A stretch of DNA of 64,000 nucleotides, taken from Utricularia gibba (taxonomy: Eukaryota > Streptophyta > Magnoliopsida > Lamiales > Lentibulariaceae). Below are positions 8,383 to 21,174 of the stretch, piece after piece (the stretch's first letter is position 1; the number at the start of each line of letters is the position of its first letter). The notes below the pieces were generated by a model. The model did not search any database. It saw nothing but the letters and a program-made list of their open reading frames with translations, and was not told the origin of the DNA. The stretch covers positions 806,001 through 870,000 of the forward strand of contig NEEC01000007.1 of NCBI GenBank assembly GCA_002189035.1. The letters are read 5' to 3'. The position numbers were made by a program, and so were the translations under genes.

Positions 8383-8517
8383 GCATAGGAGCCGTACCGC
8401 AGTTGCCAAATCCGGGTATTTAATTTCAGAATAATAATAAACAAAGGAAGCCGATAAAATTCCAACTCTCAAATCCTCCTGATTTACTTAACTATTACAA
8501 TAGGATATTTTTCTTAA

Positions 8518-9518
8518 TTAGACGGAGAGAGGATCCGACCCGAAAACATCGTTGAAGTCCTGGAAAAAGTCGTCGGCCGGCCAGAGAAGAGCGGTGGAGC
8601 CGGGATCGGAGTTTGAACTGGTGAATAGCATCTCGTTGGAGATGTCCAAGGGGAAAAGTTCATCCGAGAAGCCCGTTTGATCAAGGAAATCGGGTAACAG
8701 AGGGGGTTCTCGATGTCGGCGAAAAGGTCTTCGATCGGAGGGAATATTGAGAAATTGTACAAACTTTCCGTTGGGCAAAAAGCGACGGGGGGGCAGGCGG
8801 CGTCCGTCGATGGGGATGCAAATTCCTGATGGGTTTGGGTGGAAGGTTCGGGTTCTGGTTCGGTTTCGGGCGAGATAAAGCGGAGCACGGAGCTGGGGGA
8901 CTTGACATTCGTTTGTGAGTCGTCGCCGGAGTTGTATCCGGAGTTCTTTTCGGTCTCCGGGTGTGGATTTGAGAAATTGGTGAGGGCGTCGGGGCCACGG
9001 AGTTGAATGGCGGCGTGATCGTAAACCATGGCGGCTTCTTCCGCAGTGTCGTATGTCCCGAGCCAGAGCCTCACGCGCTGCTGTGGGTCTCTAATCTCCG
9101 CCGCCCATTTCCCCCAAGGCCGCTGCCGCACCCCCCGAAACTTCTTGTTCACCAAATTACTCTCCTGGGCAACACGCACACTCTTCTTCCGCTTCTGCGC
9201 CGTCACCGCCGGCGGGAAACTCCTCGCCGCACCCTCAGAACAACCGCCAACACTCCTATCCTCCGACTGTATCCTCACTTCGTTCACATAGCGACGGACA
9301 CGGCGCCGTTTGACACGTAACCTGTCCTCCTCTGCCTCCTCATCACTGGAGGAGTCAGTAGCATCAGCGTCAGTCACAGAGAACCGTACAGTCCTTGCCC
9401 CAACCACCCCACCGGAATAATGGCTTTTCCGTTGGCACTCCGGCGGATGCACCCCAGCAAACACCGTGGTACGCGTCACGTGCTCACTAATTCTCACTTC
9501 TCCTTCGCAACAGACCAT
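8518..9518 (-). CDS. Cytokinin response factor type AP2/ERF transcription factor, with one frameshift
   Basis: An intronless nuclear DNA-binding protein of ERF subgroup VI (CRF), which acts downstream of cytokinin signalling. The ATG is at 9518-9516. Residues about 41-85 form the CRF domain ([20 protein letters not shown], then a basic [11 protein letters not shown] block). The AP2 domain covers about 126-183 with [19 protein letters not shown] and the [12 protein letters not shown] helix region. After DLFADIE the frame breaks at the five-G run 8702-8706 (plus strand); adding one base joins it to an acidic tail ([12 protein letters not shown], then [14 protein letters not shown]) ending at a TAA at 8520-8518. 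That gives about 333 residues, normal for CRFs. Without the correction the protein would have an unrelated basic tail and lose the acidic activation region. Confidence 0.9.
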
Positions 9519-17877: not shown

Positions 17878-17886
17878 TATAAAAAA
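17878..17886 (+). promoter_or_regulatory. Probable TATA box of the MIR319 gene
   Basis: TATAAAAAA is followed about 30 bases later by a CT-rich, A-rich stretch suitable for transcription start. It lies about 150 bases before the hairpin, a common spacing for plant pri-miRNAs. Confidence 0.5.
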
Positions 17887-18031
17887 CCTCCTCTTGCTCA
17901 TACCGACACTTAACACAACTAGGGTTCGCTTCTCTTGCTAGGGATCTGAAGAGCATCAGCCGCGCCTGCTGTGTTTGAGGTGAAGTATCTTTTGCTTGTT
18001 AAATATGGTAATCTAATTGTGATCTGGAGTT

Positions 18032-18232
18032 TGTGGATCTGGGGCGAGAGAGAGCTTTCTTCAGTTCAACCATGGGGGAAGTTGGATCCAAGTTGCTGCC
18101 GAGCCATTCTTACAACTGCTGAACGAGCAAAGGCGCTTCGTTCCGCAGCTGATTGAATGAAGCGGGAGTCAATTTGGATCTTACTGTTCTTGTACTTGGA
18201 CTGAAGGGAGCTCCCTCCTCTCCAAGACATGG
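18032..18232 (+). ncRNA. MIR319: MIR319 precursor; mature miR319 at 18196-18216
   Basis: The 21 bases at 18196-18216 (TTGGACTGAAGGGAGCTCCC plus T) equal the canonical miR319, which silences TCP4-class transcription factors controlling leaf growth and flower organs. The star arm at 18049-18069 (AGAGAGCTTTCTTCAGTTCA plus A) pairs with it with few mismatches. The basal stem extends below the duplex (CTGG...GGCGAGAG against CTCCTCTCCA). The upper stem continues with GATCCAA near 18085 against TTGGATC near 18174, then further pairing towards a distant loop. A long foldback of about 190 bases with the microRNA on the 3' arm is the hallmark of the miR159/319 family, which is cut from the loop downward. 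It is miR319 and not miR159, whose mature form begins TTTGGATTGAAGG. Confidence 0.93.
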
Positions 18233-19010
18233 TAAGATTTCCACCAAACACTATGAACCATGGATCTGACAAACGTGTGCTTCAAAGGGAAGTTGCCATG
18301 ATTCCCTGCTGAGTGTTGAATCTGATAGATTACTTCACGCCTTCTGGATAGTGCGTGTCATACTGTTAGGCAGCAAGTCCCGAAGCATTTCTCATTGGAA
18401 CTACCAAAGCCTCAGGATGCGCGGTGTTATCCACCGGACTAAAGGAGATGCAAACAAAACGAATCGATTAAATGACCCCTCTGAGTGTCTCAGCATGCAA
18501 CTCTTGAGCTGCGCCTCATATTTACTTCTACAGTTTGACTAGAATTCCCAGTAGTTGAACGACTTGTTGAGTTATTTCTGTTTCTTGGAACGTTTGCTTG
18601 ATATTACAACCAGTTACGATTTCCTCGTTGTAAGAAATAAATCAGAGCCGCGGAATGGGAGAATCCGGTGCCTTTTGTTTTTCTACTGCGCCGCATGTTC
18701 TAACGAAAACCTAATTTTTGTTCCATGATGTTGTCTGAACGAACTACAAGGTGCAATTTTTTCATACTCCATACAAAATATGGAGTAATGAAATTTAGGG
18801 TTTAGGAATAAATTTAAGAAGGATGAATGAATTACTTATTATTTATGTGGTCATTCAAGAAATGGAGATGTAAAATACAATAGAAAATATATGAAAATTA
18901 TTTTAGAACAATAAAAAATAAAAGTGAAAATTGCTAATAAAAAACTTTAATACAGTTTGATAAGAGTGTAGGTAAAGAAACTATGGGTTATATTGATGTT
19001 GCAGATTTTG
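18233..19010. other. MIR319 downstream region
   Basis: The first few hundred bases are probably the 3' part of the primary MIR319 transcript; the rest (18760-18960) is AT-rich. No further gene is visible. Confidence 0.45.
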
Positions 19011-21174
19011 TCATCCCTCAGATGCTACAACGAAAGTTTTTGTGCGAGACTTTGATCCTTTGGTATTCCTTCTTGCCTCAAACAGCTTTGCTTCCAAGCT
19101 GTTCTCCTTTAAGTCTGGAGGCAATCTTGAAGATGGCTTCAAGGTATCATTCTCATTGGATGGTAGCTTCCCTGTCCATCTGCGAACCGGACTCGGCGCG
19201 TTCCTCCGAGTGAACGATGTGGAAGCTGGATAACCATCACTGGGAGCCTTCCAGTTTCTCAGTTCTCGTAGGGAATGTCGAGTGTTGAATGAATTATCGA
19301 ATGCGTGATTCGAATCCACACAATCGGTTATGCTACAAGTCTCTTGTTTCCCCTTTTTGTGATCCTGTAAATGCTCATCCGAATGGAGGTTTTCATCTTG
19401 CTGTAGGGATTCGGAGTTCATCTGCGGAGCTGGAAAGTTCCCAGCTGTCTTCAGTCCCTTCTGATCCGTTGTTTCATTGCTGCGAATGGTCTTGGAGTTC
19501 ATCATGTCATCTCTCGTTTTTTCAAGTTCAAGGAGGTTTGAATCGCTGTGCAGAGGATCAGCATCATTGCGTTCATCAGCTGCTATAAGTGGTGCCGTCT
19601 CAGGAAGCTGCCGCCTGAAGGTGGGATCATGGCTTGAGACCAAGGCTTGGATTTCATGTCGCAGTTTCTCCACTGCAGAGCTCTTTCCATCGTGGGTGAT
19701 CGACAACTTAATCTGCATTCGTTCATCAAGCCAAGACTCTGCAACATGAAGAAGTAACTGATCAAGATCACTTCCCCCTCTCCAGTTTTTATCAGATCTC
19801 TGCCTGAGGAAATGCATTTTCTTTTCGTAATCTTTTATACCAATAGCAAATGCATCGCATAGTTCTTCCAGTAGCCCTTTGATCTTCTTTCGTTCTCCAG
19901 TTCTTCAGACACACCCATTAGAGCTGATCTCACACCATCAACCTCTCTTGCCAACTTTCTGTTAAAATCTTCGATGCGGTTCCTGATCTTAATGGACTGA
20001 GCAGGCTTACGCATTGCTTCTTGGAATTTGGTTGTTCTTATGTGCTTCACCAATTCATCCAATTCTTGATGATCCGCATGCTGTTCTCTTAGTAAAGACT
20101 TTATCTTCGAACGAGCCACATCCAATTCTTTCTTCAATCCCCTGACGACTACAGCATTTGAAGACTGCTGCTCTTCCAGCCTCCATATGCGGTTCACAAC
20201 TGTAAGACGTTCAGCAGATGTTCTTAAGGTATGAGTCGTCTCCCTGTCTGTTCTTTCTGATTCTGCAGAGCTCAAGGGCGACATTGCAGGGTTATAAGGT
20301 GGAATCTGCATACCAGAATCATAAATTCTCAGAAACCTCAACCAGTAAAGAATCATTTACAATTTTCAGCTAATACGCTTGATGCATAATTCAAGCACAT
20401 CATCACATACAGTGAAGAAAACTCAGGGATTGCAGCACTTCACACAGGCAGTTAGACATTCAAGCAATCACATAAGCTCATGATCATATGAAGAGCAAGT
20501 GAAATCTCACCTCTATTGATCTACGATGATTGTATGGAACTGCTACTTGCACATGGTGTGTACTACCATGAGATTGATGATGCCCTGTTCGCTGTGGGAT
20601 TCCAAATGAATGCCTCTTCGAACTATCCAAATTTTCCACCTCAGATTGGAAAAAAAGATACCATCTCAGTGTTAAAGGACAATCTTTTTTACATCATGGC
20701 TTGATCAGGTAAGCATGAATGTAGTATTGTCGAGATTAATTACGAGAGCCGCATGCCAGGTTACACTACATAACAATCACATAATCTAGAACATGGGTGT
20801 TTTTCACAGTTTCAAGATGATACGGTTTCTAATACCAGTTTAGAAGGAGAGCAGGGGTGAAGGTCAGTCTTCCGCCGTCGCGGAAGATGATCCGCATCCG
20901 TCATTCTTCGAAGAGGGCGTTTGTAGTGATTGAGCTCCCAAACGGCGGCAGCAAGTTTCCTCGCAGAAACAAGGGAAACCATAAAGGCGCCGCCTTTAGA
21001 ATCACCCACTGCCACTTTATCTCCGGGAATTCCACCATGGGTGTTAACTGAATCGTAATCTATGGGCTTCCAGATCGACGAAACTGGAGTGAATTGCCCA
21101 CCCCTTTTACCTGCTTCGATCAAATTCACTCCAAAAATCTCAGCCTTTTCTGCTTGCGGCTCCACCCTCAACAT
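19011..21174 (-). CDS. Coiled-coil protein, At5g41620/BRANCHLESS TRICHOME-like, with one frameshift
   Basis: A plant-specific long coiled-coil protein related to At5g41620/At1g50660 and to BRANCHLESS TRICHOME; relatives act with microtubules in cell-shape control, but the role of this copy is unknown. Two exons: 21174-20836 and 20305-19011. The ATG at 21174 is the first in-frame Met after a stop. With one base restored it codes for about 544 residues. Exon 1 holds the conserved VSARKLAAAVWELNHY block. Exon 2 starts IPPYNPAMSP, continues with the coiled coil (NRIWRLEEQQSSNAVVVRGL and following heptads) and LLLHVAESWLDERMQIKLS, and ends with SLEAKLFEARR. The frame breaks near 19895: LEELCDAFAIGIKDYEKK is read one base out of phase from the preceding GVSEELE. 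One missing base (C on the plus strand) explains it. Confidence 0.82.

Follow-up and report, generated by a model that had tools for sequence, protein, structure and literature searches.

The microRNA miR319 is of ancient origin in plants and keeps in check TCP genes that control growth, and a locus carrying its sequence in a 64,000-nucleotide stretch of Utricularia gibba DNA (the window, that is, the whole of the DNA analysed) raises the question of whether it is a working MIR319 gene and which small RNAs its stem would release. Judging from the sequence, the mature RNA, the bi-duplex hairpin, the selective conservation and the TCP-type target sites together indicate that the locus is almost certainly a canonical, functional MIR319 gene. 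It is of an already known kind, an ordinary member of a textbook family that shows no departure from the described type 1 form, and it alters nothing in what is known of this family. As an annotation the locus is useful; protein-gene callers overlook loci of this sort.

Mature sequence and precursor hairpin

The sequence TTGGACTGAAGGGAGCTCCCT is the exact 21-base miR319a/b and lies on the 3' arm of the hairpin at 18196-18216 of the plus strand, exactly where the preliminary description had read it. This 21-mer corresponds to the mature form of the family, UUGGACUGAAGGGAGCUCCC(U/C). When the genome (100.1 Mb in 516 contigs) was searched with the 20-base miR319 core, six occurrences were found, while the core pattern read backwards, used as a control on the same 100.1 Mb, occurred nowhere, indicating that the word at 18196-18216 is not due to chance. 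Comparison with Rfam covariance models (cmscan) matched positions 18040-18227 to RF00638, the MIR159 family of Rfam, in which MIR319 is included, with a score of 116.8 bits against a gathering threshold of 74 (E = 7e-25). The match covers the full length of the model with no difference of note, and no other Rfam match at gathering thresholds was present in the window. The coordinates of the features are collected in Table 1.

Table 1. Features of the MIR319 locus and its surroundings, in window coordinates
Feature	Position	Strand	Basis
AP2-domain transcription factor	8514-9518	-	Conserved in duplicated region
Candidate TATA box (TATAAAA) of the primary transcript	~17878-17884 (+/- a base or two)	+	Homeolog alignment
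MIR159/319 precursor hairpin	18040-18227	+	Rfam RF00638 match 1-196 (full-length); minimum free energy -100.4, z -6.8
miR319* (passenger), 2-nt 3' overhang, AGAGCTTTCTTCAGTTCAACC	18051-18071	+	Minimum-energy pair map; ath-miR319b.1* register
Middle duplex, 5' half, holds GGATCCAA	18072-18092	+	Pair map; homeolog 19/21
Upper duplex, 5' loop-proximal partner (ACR5)	~18093-18113, limits approximate	+	Pair map
miR319a.2/b.2 counterpart (conserved 3' loop-proximal region, ACR3)	18152-18172	+	17/21 vs ath-miR319a.2 and b.2
Middle duplex, 3' half, holds TTGGATC; spacer between predicted cuts	18173-18195	+	Pair map; homeolog 18/23
Mature miR319, UUGGACUGAAGGGAGCUCCCU	18196-18216	+	Exact sequence; identical to ath-miR319a.1/b.1 (PMC2945783); homeolog 21/21

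Folding of 18020-18240, the check that the preliminary description had proposed, yielded a stable, single, long and unbranched hairpin of -100.4 kcal/mol, compared to -68.3 +/- 4.7 kcal/mol for 200 shuffled sequences, none of which was equally stable (z = -6.81). In this fold 20 of the 21 bases of the mature miR319 are paired, and the mature RNA occupies the basal part of the 3' arm of the long hairpin, opposite a star that leaves 2-nt 3' overhangs and has few mismatches. The pairing of mature RNA and star had been noticed before and is borne out; the star had been placed at 18049-18069, however, which gives a blunt-ended partner, whereas the pair map puts the Dicer-type star at 18051-18071. 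This register is supported by the Arabidopsis miR319b star, GAGCTTTCTTCGGTCCACTC (PMC2945783), which aligns to 18052-18071 with 16 of 20 positions identical. The sequence of the star differs from that of every paralogue, being unique among the six loci described below. A hairpin on the opposite strand was considered too: its sequence folds as well (z = -6.5), which any long inverted repeat would do, but it has no miRNA sequence in sense orientation and was set aside.

Paralogues, homeolog and neighbouring genes

Including the locus in the window, the genome holds six MIR319 hairpins. All six match RF00638 and form hairpins of this kind, with 18 to 20 of the 21 mature bases paired. In an alignment of the six paralogues 63 consensus pairs are predicted, and at 11 of them at least one copy has substitutions on both sides and still pairs; covariation contributes little to the energy (-1.5 kcal/mol), because only six sequences were compared. 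One of the other five, L002 (G000:C142:1737560), scores lowest of all six against the family model (91.8 bits); its arms next to the loop have diverged, and it may be a type 4 gene that is processed less well.

The nearest copy lies on contig C244, near 2,517,000, within a duplicated region of conserved gene order, in which the AP2-domain gene is followed by the MIR319 hairpin, by the counterparts of the minus-strand open reading frames at 19011-20356 and by further matches up to ~24,530 of the window. Between the two homeologs, miR319 is identical at 21 of 21 positions, the star at 18/21, the loop at 29/37, the upper arms at 24/29 and 18/21 and the middle arms at 19/21 and 18/23. Outside the hairpin, identity is 0.44-0.45 in the 3' flank, 0.34-0.56 in the upstream DNA and 0.68 in the 5' leader. 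Since the hairpin segments are thus 78-100% identical and the flanks 34-68%, the hairpin has been maintained by selection, and the mature RNA most of all. The candidate TATA box has also been retained, with CTATAAAA kept in the homeolog amid diverged sequence.

These comparisons bear on the possibility that the locus is a silent or decayed copy, of which the hairpin remains but which is no longer transcribed or diced. With six MIR319 copies in the genome, one could be redundant. Against this stand the preservation of miR319 and its star between flanks that have diverged so far, the retention of the loop-proximal duplex and that of the candidate TATA box, and we consider a silent copy very unlikely. 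A functional MIR319 gene is the reading that we retain, and its naming as MIR319 in the preliminary description is upheld by the mature RNA and its hairpin, by the Rfam covariance model, by conservation among the paralogues and by the target sites.

Upstream of the hairpin there is a pectinacetylesterase exon (PF03283), in agreement with the pectin acetylesterase neighbour reported earlier. The pectinacetylesterase stretch (~11.4-17.7 kb of the window) gave no DNA-level match in 19 kb of the duplicated C244 region, where the genes on either side of it are retained, and its absence there is probably due to gene loss after the duplication. The two minus-strand frames downstream of the hairpin (19011-19817 and 19835-20356), on the side where a coiled-coil gene had been proposed, had no Pfam match. 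As for small frames in the primary transcript, the first ATG past the candidate TATA box (~18005) gives only MVI followed by a stop, and a peptide from it was dismissed. A 16-codon frame that starts with ATG, MGEVGSKLLPSHSYNC (18072-18122), is open in the homeolog too, which is explained by the conservation of the stem. A coded peptide was rejected here as well: the frame lies in a hairpin arm and, on our reading of the alignment, its changes in the homeolog have no synonymous-site bias.

Tiers of the stem and a possible second small RNA

The locus had been described as a two-duplex foldback; the foldback is confirmed, but the pair map resolves it into three stacked tiers rather than two: miR319 and its star at the bottom, then 18072-18092 paired to 18173-18195, and on top ~18093-18113 paired to 18152-18172. 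Type 1 MIR159/319 genes are defined by a distance of over 60 nt from star to mature RNA, an unbranched stem and two conserved duplexes (PMC3118147), and all of these are found here, the unbranched stem carrying two further conserved regions next to the loop. On the 5' side of the uppermost duplex, GCTGCCGA..CATTC is conserved in the paralogues and in the Rfam consensus. The upper tier is looser in this copy, where the minimum-energy fold leaves 8 of its 21 bases without a partner. Compared to Arabidopsis MIR319a/b, the locus has an identical mature 21-mer, the same star register and the same position of the loop-proximal second small RNA (PMC2945783), and differs in the sequence of the spacer and the loop.

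That a second small RNA might arise, as the preliminary description suggested, is reasonable and has precedent in the family (PMC2945783, PMC3118147), but its placement near 18085/18174 is one duplex too low. The GATCCAA/TTGGATC pairing named as its source does not belong to a second-product duplex; it sits in the middle tier, which has one of the two conserved duplexes above it and the other below. The Arabidopsis miR319a.2 and miR319b.2 have the sequences AATGAATGATGCGGTAGACAA(A) and AATGAATGATGCGAGAGACAA (PMC2945783), and the best placement of miR319b.2 in the whole window is 18152-18172. If the second documented small RNA of the family is made here, its source, on this alignment, would be 18152-18172 rather than the neighbourhood of 18174. 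Steps of 21 and 23 nt separate the starts at 18152, 18173 and 18196, the spacing that successive dicing from the loop downward would give.

Could the second small RNA of the upper duplex, with targets of its own, be the main product of the locus instead of miR319? The upper duplex is conserved, and in one Arabidopsis data set miR319b.2 had 491 reads compared to 30 for miR319b (PMC2945783). However, conservation of the upper duplex is sufficiently explained by dicing that begins at the loop, and 18152-18172 is less conserved among the paralogues than miR319. In addition, the reverse complement of 18152-18172 with up to three mismatches was found at five places, three of which are MIR319 hairpins, the others being C328:2227033 and C413:1783736. 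Such a main product is therefore extremely unlikely, and a gene of two products, in which the small RNA of 18152-18172 has targets of its own beside miR319, is also improbable. That the hairpin is an inverted repeat that arose by chance, or a remnant of a TCP or MYB gene or of a transposon, is refuted by the Rfam E value, the fold z of -6.8 and the syntenic conservation centred on the hairpin, and its probability is practically nil.

Target sites and proposed mechanism

Prediction of TCP targets in the same genome had been proposed as a further check, and it gave six miR319-type sites at TCP loci. The whole genome, in which there are 42 TCP-domain matches, was searched with the miR319 target pattern allowing up to two mismatches. 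Eight places were found, and the six at TCP loci all read (A/G)AGGGGACCCCTTCAGTCCA(G/A). Four of these GAGGGGACCCCTTCAGTCCAR-type sites lie within single open frames of 462-470 codons that contain the TCP domain, and there code for QRGPLQSS; the other two belong to a nearly identical pair of loci, on C480 and C486, and there the site is downstream of a short TCP-domain frame. Target penalties in our scoring were 4-4.5 at the TCP sites, compared to 9 and 7 at the two non-TCP places. The complementarity of miR319 to the TCP sites is imperfect; most mismatches fall at miRNA positions 14, 15, 17 and 20, which is the usual miR319-TCP pattern. At the two split loci (G000:C480:701497-702466 and G000:C486:25808-26776) the TCP-domain frame has 141 codons and the miR319 site falls in another, downstream frame; the arrangement may be due to an intron or to a frameshift, or the pair may be a duplicate in the assembly, C486 being a contig of 35 kb.

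In the mechanism that we propose, Pol II would transcribe the MIR319 precursor, with the candidate TATA box at ~17878-17884. By analogy with the family, DCL1 would dice the hairpin from loop to base, with cuts near 18152, 18173, 18196 and 18217; processing in this direction is described for MIR319 in two reports (PMC3118147, PMC6195573). The miR319/miR319* duplex would be freed and its guide strand loaded into AGO1, and mRNAs of CIN-type TCP genes would then be cut at the conserved QRGPLQS-coding site, again as the family suggests, so that TCP activity would be limited in growing organs. As in Arabidopsis, 18152-18172 may give rise to a second, minor small RNA. TCP genes are conserved targets of miR319, and their cleavage has been seen in melon (PMC6195573). 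Small-RNA sequencing of U. gibba places miR319, at the level of the family, among the five abundant families that together account for 94% of the miRNA reads (PMC8333044).

The sister module is present as well: the standard miR159 sequence occurs at two loci that fold into hairpins, and two ELPSLQ-coding sites complementary to it lie in MYB-like open frames. Small as it is, the genome has a full miR319-TCP and miR159-MYB module. At both miR159 loci, L007 and L008, the miR159 core is exact and the RF00638 score stays below the gathering threshold. Two further candidates, L009 (G000:C2:4170637) and L010 (G000:C451:289618), had no RF00638 match and were rejected as miRNA genes; they match the miR159-like pattern because each carries, on the opposite strand, a MYB-type target site in an ELPSLQ frame.
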